From NCBI GenBank assembly GCA_900319105.1, contig ONND01000017.1, positions 1 to 60,959 of the forward strand: 60,959 bases of DNA, given 5' to 3'. Of this stretch, positions 43,987 to 50,682 are shown in pieces. The notes under the pieces are model-generated. The model did not search any database. It had not been told where the DNA came from and worked only from the letters and a program-made list of their open reading frames with translations. The translations under genes and the position numbers were made by a program. The first letter of the stretch is position 1, and each line of letters begins with the position of its first letter. This DNA is from an uncultured Bacteroidales bacterium (GTDB lineage: Bacteria; Bacteroidota; Bacteroidia; Bacteroidales; Paludibacteraceae).

Positions 43987-44007
43987 GTCTTAATTCTTTT
44001 GCGGCTG

Positions 44008-44038
44008 CAAAAGTACTACTTTTTTTTGATATACGCAA
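44008..44038 (-). promoter_or_regulatory. Promoter of the glycosyltransferase unit
   Basis: Minus strand TTGCGTATATC, then TACTTTTG starting 23 bp downstream. Confidence 0.85.
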
Positions 44039-44041
44039 GAA

Positions 44042-44401
44042 AAAGCGAAGATTTTTAGTAGAAAGACGAAAGACAAAAGTCAAAAGATATTATACTAAGC
44101 TCTGCGCGAGAGTAACCGAATCGCGTATTAACCACGCGTTAATCACGTGTTAATAGCCTATTATACCATCGGCGCAGACCTTATATTTTCTATAAGTGCC
44201 AAGGAGAGAGTGGTTGAAACCCAATACGGGTGCACACTGCCAATTGTATTCCACCCGAATGGATAGATTTTACGAACCCGCATATGCCTGAAAATGAGCA
44301 CTTTCTGAACATGATGTAAGGGGCATCTCGGAGTAATCTCGGAGGCATCCCGAGGGCAACCTACCTCAGCGCAAGACCGGGGGTGAAGAGGGGGGATTAT
44401 T
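44042..44401. other. Gene-poor stretch with short repeats
   Basis: No convincing gene. It contains GACGAAAGACAAAAGTCAAAAG (same family as in tsaD), three units of CGYGTTAATNA (44122-44153), a CGGGTG/CACCCG stem (44229-44263 region), and CTCGGAG/GCATCCCGAGGG units (44325-44358) that echo the CGAGGT array after hisS. At 44385-44398 there is a 14-bp match to the 3' end of tRNA-Ser. Confidence 0.55.
44385..44398. repeat. tRNA-Ser 3'-end fragment (possible att remnant)
   Basis: GAAGAGGGGGGATT, identical to bases within the 3' acceptor/T-arm part of the tRNA-Ser gene at 50598-50611. It is the outermost of four such copies and could mark the left end of the island. Confidence 0.5.
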
Positions 44402-44488
44402 TCAGGTAAACCATAAATATCCCGTCTTTTCCGGCGCGAATATAGGCATTAAGCCAATTTGTCTGACAATAATTTTATGTTCGCTCAT
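44402..44488 (-). CDS. Possible 28-residue small protein
   Basis: ATG at 44488 to TGA at 44402, beginning MSEHKIIVRQIGLMPIFAP and ending YLWFT. It starts about 37 nt after a good promoter (44525-44555) that has no other gene behind it. No known relatives come to mind. It may instead be the leader of a non-coding RNA. Confidence 0.3.
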   Translation of the reverse strand: MSEHKIIVRQIGLMPIFAPEKTGYLWFT

Positions 44489-44524
44489 TTGTATAGGTCG
44501 CATAAACGTACACAAATGATGCTG

Positions 44525-44555
44525 TAAAAGTACAACAAATTTCTGACATATGCAA
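44525..44555 (-). promoter_or_regulatory. Orphan promoter in gene-poor region
   Basis: Minus strand TTGCATATGTC, then TACTTTTA, spacing 23. It directs transcription toward 44500-44040, where no ordinary gene exists, implying a small protein or RNA. Confidence 0.7.
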
Positions 44556-44586
44556 ATTTAGATGTCATTTTCAATCATTTTTTTAC

Positions 44587-44698
44587 TGCCGACCTTTTAC
44601 ACCGAATATCTAAATCGCCGACATATCTAACCCGGACTTCTCTATCTTCCGGGTACTTTCTTCGGCGATCATTATTCCCGGTGTATATATTCCCGGCA
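44587..44698. other. Ladder-like nested inverted repeat A (four helices)
   Basis: Four nested pairs: TGCCG 44587-44591 with CGGCA 44694-44698; ACACCG 44599-44604 with CGGTGT 44679-44684; ATCGCCGA 44614-44621 with TCGGCGAT 44662-44669; ACCCGGA 44630-44636 with TCCGGGT 44648-44654. They are separated by AT-rich internal loops of 7-9 nt on each side, with an 11-nt apical loop. The order and near-symmetric spacing suggest a rod-like RNA or an array of protein sites. No gene overlaps it. Confidence 0.7.
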
Positions 44699-44794
44699 AC
44701 TCTATCTTCCACACATAAAACAACCTATTATACACACACCTTAATTATCACACGCACGCATACAAAGACGGAAAGAAGGCAGGAAGAACGATAA

Positions 44795-44885
44795 TGGACA
44801 CTATAGAACTAATCGCCTTATCTCTCTGCCAGTTTACACTATTATACCGGCTTAAACATAAAGGCGATAATGGAAATAGTGTCCA
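44795..44885. other. Ladder-like nested inverted repeat B (three helices)
   Basis: TGGACACTAT 44795-44804 pairs with ATAGTGTCCA 44876-44885; ATCGCCTT 44812-44819 with AAGGCGAT 44861-44868; GCCAGTTTA 44828-44836 with TATACCGGC 44843-44851 (two mismatches). Internal loops are 7 by 7 and 8 by 9 nt, the apical loop 6 nt. The architecture is like element A about 100 bp upstream, and both contain ATCGCC/GGCGAT. A terminator-like hairpin follows at 44930. Confidence 0.7.
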
Positions 44886-44929
44886 ATGATAGATGTAAAT
44901 GTGAACAATATCGGCTACTAAACGAAAAG

Positions 44930-44966
44930 CCCCGGAAGCGAATCAAGCCTCCGGGGTTCTTCTTGC
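44930..44966 (+). terminator. Rho-independent-type terminator
   Basis: CCCCGGA 44930-44936 pairs with TCCGGGG 44950-44956, followed by TTCTTCTT. It would end a plus-strand transcript of the ladder elements. Confidence 0.6.
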
Positions 44967-45029
44967 ATATATCGACCTAATCCATAACAATATCGTCGAT
45001 GAGGTTCAGATGTCTACATCATACAAGAT

Positions 45030-45536
45030 TTAATGTTCAGCGAGTAGTTTTTCCTTCTGTGAATTAAACTCTTCCTGCGTTAATACTCCGGAATCAAGAA
45101 GTTCCTTTAATTCTTTTAGCTTAGTAACTGTGTCTTTTTGATTTGTTGGTGTTGCCGCTTGTATATTCGTTTGTATATTCGTTTGTTTATCTTTTGCTAC
45201 TTTGCGATATGCGAGTACAAACGTTGTTCCTAATATTGCACCCATGGGGAATGAGATAAACAGTATCATGCGGAAAACGAACTCATCCATTGAGAACATA
45301 TCTTCAATACTTCCTCCAATAATGAGACAAATTAGGATGAAAGATAATATCCAACCTATAATTATTCCAAATAATATGGAAATTCCAATGGGTTTTTCTA
45401 CTATATAGTTACTTTGATGCTCAGAATCGTCTATTACATTAAACAACTCTTTAGAGCATCCACACTCAGGACATTGATCAGGTACTGATCCCTCCACAAA
45501 TTCTTTTTGACAAACCGGGCAAATATATTCTTTCAT
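45030..45536 (-). CDS. Zinc-ribbon membrane protein with C-terminal SHOCT domain
   Basis: 168 residues. An N-terminal zinc ribbon (CPVCQKEF ... CPECGC, four Cys), then two hydrophobic segments (ISILFGIIIGWILSFILICLIIGG and FRMILFISFPMGAILGTTFVLAY), and a SHOCT-type tail (VTKLKELKELLDSGVLTQEEFNSQKEKLLAEH), a short helical pair typical of oligomerising or anchoring proteins. I chose the ATG at 45536 because GGGAG lies at a good distance before it; 45542 is the alternative. Base composition is visibly AT-richer than the core genes, and it sits at the tail of the minus-strand island cassette. Function unknown. Confidence 0.7.
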   Translation of the reverse strand: MKEYICPVCQKEFVEGSVPDQCPECGCSKELFNVIDDSEHQSNYIVEKPIGISILFGIIIGWILSFILICLIIGGSIEDMFSMDEFVFRMILFISFPMGAILGTTFVLAYRKVAKDKQTNIQTNIQAATPTNQKDTVTKLKELKELLDSGVLTQEEFNSQKEKLLAEH

Positions 45537-45639
45537 ATTCATCTCCCTTATACGTGTCGGGCGCAACTTTTAAATTTATAATATGTGATTATTAGATTTG
45601 AAAGGCTCTCTATAGTGTATTTATTCCACTCGATTCTTT

Positions 45640-47394
45640 TTATTGTAATCTAAAATTAACTGGTAAGGTATATTTTACCCTAACTATTTTCCCATTCTGT
45701 ATACCGGGTTTCCATTTGGGCATTAACTTCATAACTCGTACTGCTTCTTTGTCAAGCGAAGGATCGCCAGCAGATTTAATTACCTCGACATTCCCAATGG
45801 AGCCGTCTCTATTTACAATGAATTGACATATGGTTCTACCTTGAATTCCACTTTCTTGAGCGATAGCGGGATATTTTACATTATTAGCTAGGAAGCTCCA
45901 TAATGCCTGCTGCCCTCCGGGAAATTCCGGCATCTTTTCAACGACAGCAAAAACTACGTCCTCATCCTCCTTCTCTTCATAATTGTTAGATGCGGATTGC
46001 GCATTTGATTTTTTACTCGGTTGCCTTACTGGTTTTTGAAGATTCGCTATAAAATTATTTTCTGCGATGTAATCTTTGTTAACCTCCATTAACTGTGATT
46101 GAGTTGGAGCAATGGCTTTTTCATTTTGAAGTTTAACAAGACTTCCATATTCAAGTGGTTGTTTGTTTTCTGATGAAGAAATTTTAACTTGGGATAGTCG
46201 GAGATCAGTGGCATTATAAAATACGAACCTCGCGCCTGCGCACCAAATTGTTATCTCGTATGGGCACTCGTAACGCCCTGAATAACTGAGTTGATATTCA
46301 ACGGGAAATCTTAGAAATTCTTTCTTGCATCTTTTATATGTTGCATCAAATTGTTTTGATAAGTCCTTCATCGCATTTTTGTTATCTGGTATTTGGGCTA
46401 TGGGTACAATGTTCATGCGACCGACAACTCCATTATATTTAGAAGGTACTAATTCCATTGGTTTATACCATTTCCCTGCATTATATGTTGCCATTATTTG
46501 AGGAGGTTTAACTTTCCCCTTGATACTTGATTTCTTCTTAGAGTTACTTGTCATTTCAAAAGAAATAGAGATTACACGCCCAAGATAGTCAGTTTTATAT
46601 TTAGCATCGTTAATATAGTATGTGGCATTGGGCATAGCTGCCATATTAAGCAACATTTCATCAAGGACAACAACCCCTTGGTCTTTTGATATTTCCCCCA
46701 ATACTTTATGTCCTTCTGTAGATAATACTACCCATTTATCGTCACCTTCTTTATTGCTTAATTGTAATTGATGAGGTTTAATGAATGATATTTTCTTTGG
46801 GTATAGGGAATCTAATCTATTAGCAAGAACAGCCCAATAGTATAGCATCGTCATATTATTTGCCAAGAGATTATTTTCCCATAGTTTTTGTAGTTCCAAA
46901 ATAGAGGGATGATTGTGAGATAGTAACTCTGCTGAAGAGATTTGATGGGATGGGTATTGGAAATCATCTATTTTCCGGATGATTTTTTCACGTACAGCCC
47001 CATTAGCCATAAGTCCTATAGGTTTCAAAGAACTACACCAAAAATAACTTGCAATAAGTTGCTTCTGTCTTTTGGACATTTCTGCGTATTGACCATCCCC
47101 AAAAGTGTACATGTCATAGAATTTATCAATAGAATCCAATGCAGTAGTGTCAATTCTAAAATCAGCCAATTTCTGCGCGTCCTTTGATAACGATTCTTTT
47201 ATTTTATCATTCAGAATGCCTTCCCAAGCATTATTTGCTTGCTTACTTACTTCATCTACTACTATTTTAGTAGCTGTTCCTGTTGGGTCTGTAAGCCAAT
47301 CCATCAACCCTTGCGCTGAAGTGTGAACAGAAAGACTAATAAGCCATATTGTAGCAACGGCTTTACATGCCTGCATTTTATTTATTCTTAACAT
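45640..47394 (-). CDS. TonB C-terminal-domain protein with degenerate nuclease-like middle domain
   Basis: About 584 residues, exported (TM/signal ACKAVATIWLISLSVHTSA). The last roughly 95 residues are a TonB C-terminal domain (EKMPEFPGGQQALWSFLANN ... VMKLMPKWKPGIQNGKIV). Residues about 250-395 follow the layout of the DNA/RNA non-specific endonuclease family (Endonuclea_NS_2 type): YKTDYLGRVISISFEM, then MELVPSKYNGVVGRMNIVPI, DLSKQFDATYKRC, and VEYQLSYSGRYECPYEITIW. Where active members have a D-x-G-H-L-I-A motif this protein reads KPMELVP, so the catalytic His is replaced by Glu and it is probably not a nuclease. The start is uncertain (47415, 47394 or 47376). Third gene of the AT-rich cassette. 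Confidence 0.65.
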   Translation of the reverse strand: MLRINKMQACKAVATIWLISLSVHTSAQGLMDWLTDPTGTATKIVVDEVSKQANNAWEGILNDKIKESLSKDAQKLADFRIDTTALDSIDKFYDMYTFGDGQYAEMSKRQKQLIASYFWCSSLKPIGLMANGAVREKIIRKIDDFQYPSHQISSAELLSHNHPSILELQKLWENNLLANNMTMLYYWAVLANRLDSLYPKKISFIKPHQLQLSNKEGDDKWVVLSTEGHKVLGEISKDQGVVVLDEMLLNMAAMPNATYYINDAKYKTDYLGRVISISFEMTSNSKKKSSIKGKVKPPQIMATYNAGKWYKPMELVPSKYNGVVGRMNIVPIAQIPDNKNAMKDLSKQFDATYKRCKKEFLRFPVEYQLSYSGRYECPYEITIWCAGARFVFYNATDLRLSQVKISSSENKQPLEYGSLVKLQNEKAIAPTQSQLMEVNKDYIAENNFIANLQKPVRQPSKKSNAQSASNNYEEKEDEDVVFAVVEKMPEFPGGQQALWSFLANNVKYPAIAQESGIQGRTICQFIVNRDGSIGNVEVIKSAGDPSLDKEAVRVMKLMPKWKPGIQNGKIVRVKYTLPVNFRLQ

Positions 47395-48592
47395 AATCAA
47401 TAAATTGTTGCTCATTAGTTGTTGTTTGTTCCCTAAGATCGTTACTTATAGTTGCAATCTGTTTTTCCATGCTTTTAAGTAGTGAAACATAACATGATTC
47501 CATATAAGCAAGACGAGTATAAATAATATCTTCTGAAAGGTTAGACCCCGCCCATCTTTCTGCTAACATTTTACCTCCTCGAACCATGAGCCTGCCAAAC
47601 AGACCTCCGGCAAACCAACTAGCCACACTAGCAGCGTCATCAATATTTTCCCTTGATCTCTGATAATTCTCTTTTGCCTGTTGGATACGCTCTAAGATGT
47701 CTTTATCAGATACGTACCCCATTTTAAGTTGCGGGATAGTCAAGCGCATTGGGGTAAACTGTTTTAGTCCCATCACCTGACTAAATCTTGATCTTCCTGC
47801 ATTTACAGCCTCGCAATACGCATCGGCTTCTAATTGGAGATATTGTCGCAACTGGTCACTTGATAGATTTTGTTTTACAATAGACGCAAATTGCCTTTCG
47901 ATTACAGCCGGGTCATCTGAAAATTCTTCTAAAGCAGCATATTGATAACAAATATTCTCAAAGCTTTTGTAGATATATGTGTGAGTTTTACGAGAGATAA
48001 CATACTGTAGACGATACAAATTTAGAGCTTCATTTTGAATAAAATTAGGCATATTACCCTTCATTATGTCCTTTCTCTCTTTGGCACGAGTACTTAATTC
48101 ATTATTAAGCGCTTGCATATCGGAATCTGTGATAACATCCTGTAGCATCATCAATTCTGCTAATGGCACGGAATCTAAAGATTCAAAAACACATTCTTTA
48201 AAGGTTCCATACAAAATATCCTGATGACTTGGGTTCTTTTGAAGATATGCTAATAATTCTTTACCATTAAATGAGTATAGTTGCGCTATTATTTGGCGCT
48301 TTTTCTTATTGAGGACATCGGTTAGTAGATTTATGACCAAAGAATCGTTAGCACTTTTCCGGTTTATCTCCTCTAATTGGTCGTAGTTTAATTGTTCCAA
48401 GTTGGGATGAACCAAAGCTAAAGCATCTTCTATAATAGGAAGCAGAGAAGAGTCTGCTGTAACATGATACTCCAGCAAACGCACGTAATTGCCATCCTTC
48501 CATGCTTCAAAAATTTGATCCTCGGTCTGAGCATTTGTTGTAAATATACCACAAACCGCACAGACAATTAGGCAAAAATTTTTCAATTTCAT
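47378..48592 (-). CDS. Secreted helical protein, unknown function
   Basis: 404 residues with a signal peptide (MKLKNFCLIVCAVCGIFTTNAQ). The mature part is helical (IIEDALALVHPNLEQLNYDQLEEI, LQLEADAYCEAVNAGRSRF) with a glycine-rich amphipathic stretch late in the chain (VASWFAGGLFGRLMVRGGKM) that could insert into or lie on a membrane. I recognise no family. It starts four bases after the upstream membrane-protein gene and its end overlaps or abuts the TonB-C gene, so the three are one unit. AT-rich like its neighbours. Confidence 0.6.
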   Translation of the reverse strand: MKLKNFCLIVCAVCGIFTTNAQTEDQIFEAWKDGNYVRLLEYHVTADSSLLPIIEDALALVHPNLEQLNYDQLEEINRKSANDSLVINLLTDVLNKKKRQIIAQLYSFNGKELLAYLQKNPSHQDILYGTFKECVFESLDSVPLAELMMLQDVITDSDMQALNNELSTRAKERKDIMKGNMPNFIQNEALNLYRLQYVISRKTHTYIYKSFENICYQYAALEEFSDDPAVIERQFASIVKQNLSSDQLRQYLQLEADAYCEAVNAGRSRFSQVMGLKQFTPMRLTIPQLKMGYVSDKDILERIQQAKENYQRSRENIDDAASVASWFAGGLFGRLMVRGGKMLAERWAGSNLSEDIIYTRLAYMESCYVSLLKSMEKQIATISNDLREQTTTNEQQFIDYVKNK

Positions 48593-48596
48593 AGTA

Positions 48597-49967
48597 CTAT
48601 AGTGATATAAAATTTTCATTTTCTTCAAAATTTTCTTCGAGTTTTTCCTGCTCTTCTGTTGTGTCCTCAACACAGTCTTCATATACGTAATAGTCAGTCG
48701 CCGGTTTGGAATAATCTATATAAGCTTTTGTATATGGCTGATAGGAAATATTATCTATCTTCCATGTACCTTCATCATTCGTCATTACTACGCATGTCGG
48801 CACGTCTCCTGAATAACCGCAACTTACCGTTACTATATACGAGTGATCTAAGTTCTCGTTCGGCTCAATTCTTTCCAAACGCATGCATTCATCACCAATA
48901 CCAAAGTCTTGATTACTAGTCAATACTAAACAATCCCAACACGAAGTATAATGCATGAATCGTTTAGTCTCAAATATTTCGAATCCTCCCCATTCTTCAA
49001 TTTGATCGAAAGAAGCAGTATAGTATTTCTGAAGGATAGCCATACAGGTCTCATCATCATTTGGGGCAGGCACGCTATCGGTATTTACAGAAGTCGAAGC
49101 AATAGCATCTTCCTCTTCAGTATTCATTGTTTCGTATTGCTCCAATTCTTGCTCTTCACTCAGTGGCAATGTACTTAGAATGACACAACTGGATACGAAA
49201 ATAGAAAGGCCTAAAGCAATGCCGACAATTTGCCCCTCCGTAATAGGTCTTTTCCCTTTATCTGTATTTATCTTTATTTTCGCTAATAATTGCTGCCAAG
49301 TAAGGTTTTCGCTTTGAGGTAAATCAAATACCTTCTTCAGTTCTATAGCTCCCTTTATCAGAGTAAAACCACAACTTGCTACAAAAAAAAGTGAAAGATA
49401 GATATATATTTCCTCCATGTGAAATTTTACACCATGATTCATTAGGTCATTAAAACCATAAAGTCCCCAGATTATTAAAATATATGACGTTAGCCCACAC
49501 GCCATAGACAGGTAATAATATGTAAGAATAGCGGCTTTGTTCAGTCTGGGCTTTTTTAGTTCTTTGAAATATGCGATGAGAGAGAAAATACAGATAATAC
49601 CGGAAAAGAGTAAGACAGAACAGATAGTAGATATAGTTCCTCGATATTGCATCAATACTATCGGTTCTTGTATATCTCCGATGAAGCCACTTGAACGTAA
49701 GAACTGGAGTATTAGCCCAAGCCATCCACCTCCGAATAATGAAATGTAATTATCCACATTAAACAGCTCTCCGATCATACCAGTCAAAGCGGATAATGCA
49801 TACGCGACAAAGATGAATAACAACGCCCAACTGGTTAAATAAAATGGAGCGTTCGATAATCTCTTAATTTGATTTCTGTCAAATTGGCGATAGGTTTGAG
49901 CCAATTTTTTTCTAGTGGAAAACTGATATACCACTAATGCGATAAGAAGAATAAAAAATAGTGTCAT
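48597..49967 (-). CDS. Polytopic membrane protein with extracytoplasmic C-terminal domain
   Basis: 456 residues. Residues 1 to about 265 have seven hydrophobic segments (FFILLIALVVYQF, SWALLFIFVAYALSALTGMI, TICSVLLFSGIICIFSLIAYF, ILTYYYLSMACGLTSYILII, LSLFFVASCGFTLI, VGIALGLSIFVSSCVIL). After an acidic linker, residues about 300-420 resemble an NTF2-like/DUF3828-type fold (CMAILQKYYTASFDQIEEWGG ... GTWKIDNISYQ), with several Cys. The tail is strongly acidic (EEQEKLEENFEENENF). First gene of the cassette; its promoter at 50222-50252 leaves a long leader of about 250 nt. Function unknown; a sensor-like role is a guess. Confidence 0.6.
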   Translation of the reverse strand: MTLFFILLIALVVYQFSTRKKLAQTYRQFDRNQIKRLSNAPFYLTSWALLFIFVAYALSALTGMIGELFNVDNYISLFGGGWLGLILQFLRSSGFIGDIQEPIVLMQYRGTISTICSVLLFSGIICIFSLIAYFKELKKPRLNKAAILTYYYLSMACGLTSYILIIWGLYGFNDLMNHGVKFHMEEIYIYLSLFFVASCGFTLIKGAIELKKVFDLPQSENLTWQQLLAKIKINTDKGKRPITEGQIVGIALGLSIFVSSCVILSTLPLSEEQELEQYETMNTEEEDAIASTSVNTDSVPAPNDDETCMAILQKYYTASFDQIEEWGGFEIFETKRFMHYTSCWDCLVLTSNQDFGIGDECMRLERIEPNENLDHSYIVTVSCGYSGDVPTCVVMTNDEGTWKIDNISYQPYTKAYIDYSKPATDYYVYEDCVEDTTEEQEKLEENFEENENFISL

Positions 49968-50221
49968 ACAGGTATATTTTTATTGTCATATATACGAAAA
50001 GCGTGGAGAGTTATACTCTCTACCGACTAACAGGCTCTGGAATAACCTTACGAAAAATAAAGAGAATAATGTGCTCCACGCTACATATACTGATAGATAC
50101 TCAGCATATATACGCAGAAAGCAATTACTTCCCCCTTTCGATGAAATTTTCCAGATTTCGTTAGTTCGGAGTTGTGTTAAAGTACGCCTTCTGGTTTTTG
50201 GGTTTCTCTCCAAAAACGCTG
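49968..50221. other. Long leader of the island cassette
   Basis: About 250 nt between the promoter at 50222-50252 and the first ATG at 49967. CGTGGAGAGTTATACTCTCTAC and several TATAC/GCATATATAC pieces are present; I see no clear riboswitch or small gene. Confidence 0.4.
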
Positions 50222-50252
50222 CAAAGATACTACTTTTTTTTGATATACGCAA
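50222..50252 (-). promoter_or_regulatory. Promoter of the island cassette
   Basis: Minus strand TTGCGTATATC, TATCTTTG starting 23 bp later. The cassette thus uses the host-type promoter. Confidence 0.8.
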
Positions 50253-50322
50253 GAAAATCAAAGATTTTTTTTGGTAGTTTTTTTAAGAACATAAACATAG
50301 ATAAACCCTTTTGAAAGCTTTT

Positions 50323-50346
50323 GCGGAAGAGAAGGGGGATTCGAGG
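50323..50346. repeat. tRNA-Ser 3'-end fragment, diverged
   Basis: Resembles the tRNA-Ser 3' part at 50595-50616 (GCGGAAGAG...GGGGATTCGA) with small differences. A second fragment, GCGAGAGGGGGGATTCG, lies at 50426-50442. Confidence 0.5.
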
Positions 50347-50425
50347 GCACCGACATTGCCTAATGGCAATCCCACCTCGAAACCCAACAAGCTGCCGCTG
50401 GCACCTTGTTCAAAGAAAAAAAAGA

Positions 50426-50442
50426 GCGAGAGGGGGGATTCG
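50426..50442. repeat. tRNA-Ser 3'-end fragment
   Basis: GAGAGGGGGGATTCG within 50426-50442 matches the tRNA-Ser T-arm/acceptor end. Possible attachment-site remnant. Confidence 0.5.
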
Positions 50443-50593: not shown

Positions 50594-50595
50594 AG

Positions 50596-50682
<87 letters not shown>

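Follow-up and report, generated by a model that had tools for sequence, protein, structure and literature searches.

The window analyzed here, a stretch of 60,959 nucleotides from an uncultured Bacteroidales bacterium, carries two ladder-like hairpins, A (44587-44698) and B (44795-44885). Both belong to a 6.2-kb island at tRNA-Ser(gct) and lie in its attachment-site end. Element A is far from chance by itself; B alone is marginal and stands out mainly through its likeness to A. We tentatively interpret A and B as a single type of structured element, present twice and acting as RNA, with the minus strand as the slightly likelier source, and give this joint interpretation a probability of just under 0.4.

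Structure of the Ladder Elements

Element A, delineated by folding and by a ladder detector, consists of four rungs of 5, 7, 8, and 7 bp (44587-44591/44694-44698, 44598-44604/44679-44685, 44614-44621/44662-44669, and 44630-44636/44648-44654), which from outer to inner read TGCCG/CGGCA, TACACCG/CGGTGTA, ATCGCCGA/TCGGCGAT, and ACCCGGA/TCCGGGT. The rungs are parted by internal loops of 6/8, 9/9, and 8/7 nt and closed by an end loop of 11 nt. All 27 of the 27 pairs are Watson-Crick, and the loops are mostly unpaired. Either strand might be the one of action, with the minus strand slightly favored. For B, to which no strand is assigned, rungs of 10 bp (44795-44804/44876-44885, TGGACACTAT/ATAGTGTCCA) and 8 bp (44812-44819/44861-44868, ATCGCCTT/AAGGCGAT) are separated by a 7/7 loop; a third rung is weak on the plus strand (GCC/GGC) and amounts to 6 bp, with one G-U pair, on the minus strand (GCCGGU/ACUGGC).

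An earlier sequence-only reading had described two successive nested inverted repeats with four helices in A and three in B. Sequence, folds, and z values bear out this description, except that the third helix of B is full only on the minus strand. Rung starts are spaced by 11, 16, and 16 nt in A and by 17 and 16 nt in B. As also noted in that reading, ATCGCC/GGCGAT is common to both elements, while the other rung sequence differs.

The claim that the elements are not random holds for both, since none of 200 shuffles of either folds as well. The z values of the RNA folds are -7.58 (plus) and -7.53 (minus) for A and -4.53 (plus) and -5.74 (minus) for B; as DNA, they are -6.55 (plus) and -5.74 (minus) for A and -4.28 (plus) and -4.50 (minus) for B. 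Taken as 120-nt pieces, A reaches -7.5/-8.9 and B -3.8/-5.5, the lowest value being -3.4 among 120 random pieces of 120 nt from the window, each folded on one strand. The ladder detector ranks A first (score 48) and B second (32) in the 61-kb window. B alone is marginal, because a score of 30 is reached both by the third place in the window and by the best among four dinucleotide-shuffled windows. No ORF of at least 80 aa overlaps either element, in line with the earlier claim that they lie in no gene.

Comparison of A with B

When a covariance model built from A alone is run with filters off, B is its top match in the window after A itself, at 17.7 bits and a rough E value of 0.051 on the minus strand; on the plus strand, B receives 12.6 bits (E 1.1). 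With default filters, B is recovered neither in its own genome nor in 44 sources that include the window. In the register of the A-model match, and with the outer rung of A excluded, 22 pairs can be compared between the two elements. Ten of these are the same, ten are changed on both sides, one is changed on one side, and one is broken in B. The identical core is AUCGCC/GGCGAU.

When the geometry of A is fixed (rungs of 7, 8, and 7 bp, loops allowed to vary by one or two bases, Watson-Crick pairs only), A forms 22 of 22 pairs, B forms 20, and the next separate place in the window forms 18. Geometry alone is no proof, because five tRNA-Ser ends in 624 kb of other DNA from the genus also reach 20-21 of 22 pairs (L067, L068, L072, L073, and L084, all spanning the tRNA-Ser 3′ end). 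Among the three proposals of the sequence-only reading, a structured RNA is nevertheless the best supported, because A and B share a geometry with paired changes and rung-built RNAs exist in the order. As for the further proposal of a new family, the A model gives no other match in the 178 genomes of the genus, and the one relative that reaches B has a single arm of it.

Position in an Island at tRNA-Ser

The island is delimited by a 14-bp direct repeat on the plus strand. The left copy of GAAGAGGGGGGATT marks the island end at 44385-44398, and the right copy (50598-50611) lies inside the 3′ end of tRNA-Ser(gct) (50595-50682, minus strand), which is likely the integration target. A and B had been described as adjoining an island cassette; the repeats place them in its attachment-proximal end. 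The island genes span 45030-49967, all on the minus strand. By Pfam match, they include a SHOCT protein gene (45030-45566) and a TonB_C protein gene (45640-47415); two further proteins (47378-48682 and 48597-49967) have no Pfam match. The TonB_C protein displays a sub-threshold match to Endonuclea_NS_2 (25.8 bits against a cut-off of 27). No integrase is found with Pfam among the scanned island proteins.

This location would suit a cis-acting DNA site that folds as a single strand, such as a transfer origin, a recombination site in folded form, or a single-strand origin or promoter. An element acting in trans would use it for excision, transfer, or copying. A and B do fold as DNA on both strands, and with no integrase among the scanned island proteins, help in trans would be needed. 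On the other hand, A and most of B are missing from the related island end at the locus L010, described below. A search of 44560-44980 on both strands gave no complementary RYYYAAC/GTTRRRY boxes. The origin-like or recombination site suggested earlier would have an attachment site next to it but lacks attC-type box pairs, and we consider such a site unlikely.

Several other observations concern the island and its flanks. A 91-aa ORF with a TTG start (49986-50261) is perhaps not a true gene, as part of it coincides with a candidate leader. On the minus strand, positions 49995-50176 of the window, before the gene at 48597-49967, fold into a long ladder that is preceded by a promoter-like TATCTTTG; the scores of this stretch with the models R1 and R2, introduced below, are not significant (12.5 and 9.2 bits). 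Homologs of this last island gene are limited to five weak matches outside its own genome among 178 genomes, and at one homolog locus (L193) no ladder is seen by eye in the part read. A 40-bp promoter-like stretch occurs twice with 95% identity, at 44004-44043 before a glycosyltransferase gene outside the island and at 50218-50257 before the island operon. The two copies are spaced by 6214 bp and the 14-bp repeats by 6213 bp, the DNA between being unlike. A duplication of both island flanks was dismissed, its support being confined to this 40-bp stretch and to the short repeats at the ends. A short ORF near the island end was likewise rejected as a gene, its frame being shifted in the window; a degenerate pattern for it gave three matches in genome contigs, two on MAG contigs of relatives and one in an Anaerolineales MAG.

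At L062, L065, L068, L072, L073, and L088 and at 50328-50440 of the window, the tRNA is succeeded by additional copies, exact or degenerate, of the tRNA-Ser 3′ end, as if several elements had inserted in turn. One contig carries a pair of tRNA-Ser(gct) stretches 34.6 kb apart (G142:C23:52701-52793 and 87316-87408; L063 and L062); both match the query with 100% identity along 93 bases and are perhaps the ends of a larger element. A crude motif scan for integrases beside tRNA-Ser, covering 40 loci, gave nine matches in seven loci that look like chance.

Strand, Promoter, and Terminator

The strand signals of A and B are weak and lean toward the minus strand. The hints come from B, whose RNA z value is better there and whose third rung is complete only there. 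The RNA energy of A is -47.6 kcal/mol on the minus strand against -40.2 kcal/mol on the plus strand, but the shuffles shift alike, so that the z values are equal; as DNA, A folds better on the plus strand (z -6.55 vs -5.74). Among the 58 loop bases of A, there is no G on the plus strand and hence no C on the minus strand, a bias that can be read either way. A TATCATTG box, noticed by eye, stands directly before B on the minus strand and is retained in L010.

A search for intrinsic terminators between 44385 and 45030 gives only one, which occupies 44930-44956, reads on the minus strand, and has the tail CTTTTCGTTT; A and B are not intrinsic terminators themselves, and neither by eye nor in this search does a T-run follow them. 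The terminator presumably ends the island operon. It had been noticed earlier as a hairpin following A and B. The terminator does exist, but it reads on the minus strand, so that both elements lie downstream of it. Promoter-like matches near A and B are at chance level, with three found and 2.0 expected. This level, together with the operon terminator standing before B and A on the minus strand, counts against an RNA.

If A and B do act as RNA, they would form a tandem B-A non-coding RNA, in which each domain is a hairpin of 5-10-bp rungs parted by internal loops. Such an RNA could have a weak promoter to itself, or could arise when transcription of the operon continues past the terminator at 44930-44956. 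It might offer a binding protein a scaffold of rungs and loops, or be a stable 3′ RNA of the island. Its transcription, strand, partner, and role are what we infer.

On the other side of A, a leftward promoter-like stretch (44525-44556, minus strand, TTTG-N20-TACTTTTA) is directed away from A and is not seen in L010. We take it to be a near-consensus Bacteroidales promoter; the exact form that was scanned missed it by the last base. With BLAST of 44500-44970, stretches resembling 44514-44587 are found at 14 other places in the genome. A adjoins this promoter and on the plus strand reads as loose repeats, for example CCGGACTTCTCTATCTT and CCGGCAACTCTATCTT (repeat family D6). CCG units every 15-16 bp in A might bind a multimeric protein on double-stranded DNA, perhaps controlling the promoter at 44525-44556. 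However, judged by eye, the rungs of A pair over their full 5-8 bp only with their own mirror partners, a pairing that a repeat array does not need, and no such repeats are seen in B. The binding array for a multimeric protein, which the sequence-only reading had offered as another option, therefore becomes less likely despite the loose 15-16-nt CCG period, and we regard it as highly improbable.

A Second, Widespread Ladder RNA

R2 is a different RNA from A and B, mostly a probable 5′ leader and displaying strong covariation. In 636 kb of DNA, mostly from beside tRNA-Ser genes, the ladder detector ranks L100:418-531 seventh (score 42), and this ladder was chosen as lead for its ATCGCC. BLAST from it reaches 24 places in 15 genomes of the genus at an E value of 1.1e-5 or better, and 37 of 178 genomes at E 0.1. 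Model R2 is built from 18 of the 24 rows, the six ATCGGC-type rows being excluded; model R1 is an earlier version, in which the 5′ arm of rung 2 is misplaced in part of the rows. Over the 18 rows, 93.5% of the cells pair, and 78 cells are changed on both sides, compared with 4-8 when the partners are slid by 1-3 columns. The covariation score is reached by none of 500 shuffles, the count of pairs with both-sided change by 16 of 500, and that of further pair types by 48 of 500.

Matches to R2 are present in at least 101 of 178 genomes of the genus at E 0.05, and in at least 67 of 237 genomes and at least 53 of 170 genera of the order at E 0.001, all of these being lower bounds from 16 or 12 candidates scored per genome. 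The window's own genome contains four R1 places (two below E 0.001) and three R2 places. Among 45 aligned members, which stand in L130-L191, both-sided change is seen in 36 of 39 pairs, with 441 such cells compared with 63-78 when slid, in an alignment that was fitted to the structure and leans toward it; the original 52 rows included seven that matched these places on the opposite strand, and these were removed. The ladder is followed by a T-run in 41 of the 45 members, and an ORF starts on the same strand within 400 nt in 42. With a loose pattern, 20 of the 45 display a promoter-like box. The sense strand is indicated as the RNA by one pair that is U-G in 39 of 45 members. At gathering score, Rfam 15 places no family on the R2 ladder in 22 distinct places (23 sources). 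R2 is probably a 5′ leader that works as an attenuator. Another ladder hairpin, at L084:1335-1475, scores 54; it contains a rung of 16 bp and, on the minus strand, a T-run. Its genome has two R2 matches at E 0.05, neither of which is this hairpin.

The presence of covarying ladder RNAs in the same genome and order supports the interpretation of A and B as RNA. The models themselves reject both elements, which counts against it: in the window with filters off, A and B score at noise level with R2 (10.0 bits, E 6.5, and 9.6 bits, E 8.2), and R1 finds neither in the window at E values up to 10. A and B lack the T-run and nearby downstream gene start of R2. They do have several rungs with opposed loops, one of which is UCGCC-like; this is a weak test because the R2 lead was chosen for its ATCGCC. 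We therefore do not count A and B as members of R2, though they may work like it.

Relatives of the Locus

Two other genomes of the genus carry island-end sequence beside tRNA-Ser, in CAMHGK010000183.1 (L010) and CAMHSB010000003.1 (L028/L013). The attachment-site-proximal DNA at 44385-44516 (blocks 1+2, no strand assigned) is 93% identical in L010, where the island end, compared by eye with L022, runs into the tRNA-Ser 3′ end. In L028 (the same place as L013/L023), the first 56 bp of blocks 1+2 are 100% identical and stand beside tRNA-Ser. Block 3 (44860-44911, no strand assigned), which holds only the right arm of B, is 94% identical in L010 and follows there directly beyond blocks 1+2, so that L010 has neither the promoter nor A and lacks the left half of B. 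This single arm of B without a partner, and the lack of any relative beyond the A/B pair, count against an RNA. Outside the genus, blocks 1+2 have two weak BLAST matches (L029 and L030), which look like parts of unrelated genes and were set aside.

Beyond these loci, A and B appear to be rare. BLAST of 44562-44970 against 300 genomes of the family finds one genome besides their own. Among the 178 genomes of the genus, the A model finds A in its own genome and nothing in the other 177, with the stricter filters of many-genome searches, which lose weak matches and would miss B-like relatives. In its own genome, on both strands and at E values up to 10, the model finds nothing besides A, and in the 44 sources it adds one 13-bit match (E 8.9). 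The covariance search that the sequence-only reading had suggested as a check thus yields compensating differences between A and B, but no further match among the genomes of the genus for a model built from A alone.

Other origins were considered and rejected. A dispersed repeat or REP element does not fit, as the A model is single-copy in the genome and BLAST finds elsewhere only stretches like 44514-44587. A known Rfam 15 family is likewise dismissed, as only tRNA is found in the window at gathering score; at E values up to 5, three weak matches lie around A and B, the best being MicC (24.1 bits against a gathering score of 90, E 0.38). Distant blastn detects no relatives of A and B in phages and plasmids. 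In viral contigs, pattern searches give no match for the attachment block, none for the B arms, and one for the A arms; the latter (L164) is one A arm in a GC-rich-looking stretch and was judged to be chance. In the literature, we recognized no paper on A/B or R2; PMC8040213 deals with palindromic candidates as a whole, and an earlier listing of R2 or A/B is possible.

The state of L010 also suits the notion that A and B are descendants of ladder RNAs in leaders, either R2 or a sister of it, and were stripped of promoter, gene, and function by rearrangement of the island end, their decay being recent. The island end in L010 is the same one, but it has neither A nor the promoter and only half of B. 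The spacing CACT-N9-ATCGCC ... GGCGAT-N9-AGTG in B is exactly that of the R2 member L102, a match made by eye and post hoc and not seen in every member, and no T-run follows A or B. Random decay, however, would strike the rungs too, whereas 27 of 27 pairs of A are Watson-Crick and its loops are mostly unpaired. The R2 scores of A and B are at noise level, and the likeness of the ATCGCC rung is not independent, the R2 lead having been chosen by ATCGCC. We regard such a decayed origin as doubtful, and our preferred interpretation remains that of a structured RNA present in two copies.

Implications

A and B are an orphan pair with unlike rung sequences at near-equal spacing, as is expected when shape, not sequence, is read. 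One might speculate that A, B, R2, and possibly the leader of the island operon belong to a broad Bacteroidales class of ladder RNAs, in which the rung sequence is free and the spacing is kept and read by a common factor. Within such a class, R2 would be an attenuator before genes that by eye often look exported, and the gene-free tandem pair of the island would be a trans-acting decoy. We hold this proposal to be rather improbable.

R2 outweighs A and B in importance, as it occurs in at least 67 of 237 genomes of the order, mostly before genes, and in the tested places has no Rfam 15 match on the ladder. Should it prove to attenuate transcription, it would represent a widespread layer of control in Bacteroidales that is testable in laboratory strains.

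Comparison with Known Systems

The attC site of integrons is a single-strand hairpin in which two boxes of 7-8 bp (RYYYAAC/GTTRRRY) surround an unpaired spacer. A and B resemble it as hairpins of short boxes, but they have more rungs, and no bulged bases are seen. DUF805b RNA (Rfam RF02914), which is cis-regulatory, occurs at 3 of 14 loci, where it stands after R2 and before the gene start. It differs from the ladders in being 35 nt long with one short stem, and is absent from the window at gathering score.

PMC8040213 reports 250 palindromic candidates among 3161, of which 230 have predicted terminators. Among the palindromic candidate RNAs described there, HMP_4078, HMP2_4205, HMP2_1065, and HMP2_1032 are mostly or entirely from Bacteroidetes; HMP_4078 is 109 bp long, has no predicted terminator, is most common in Bacteroidetes, and is found near phage integrase domains. 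These candidates, of 80-132 bp and matching both strands, could include R2 or A/B.

R2 shares with A and B the rungs with short opposed internal loops and the occurrence in the same genome, genus, and order. It is about 150 nt long, and its common second rung, UCGCCAA, is near the AUCGCC rung of A and B. What sets R2 apart is that it mostly continues into a T-run and then a gene start, and that it has a common GGUGUUUGGCGAUACC segment and an apical arm of the GCCCACGC type.
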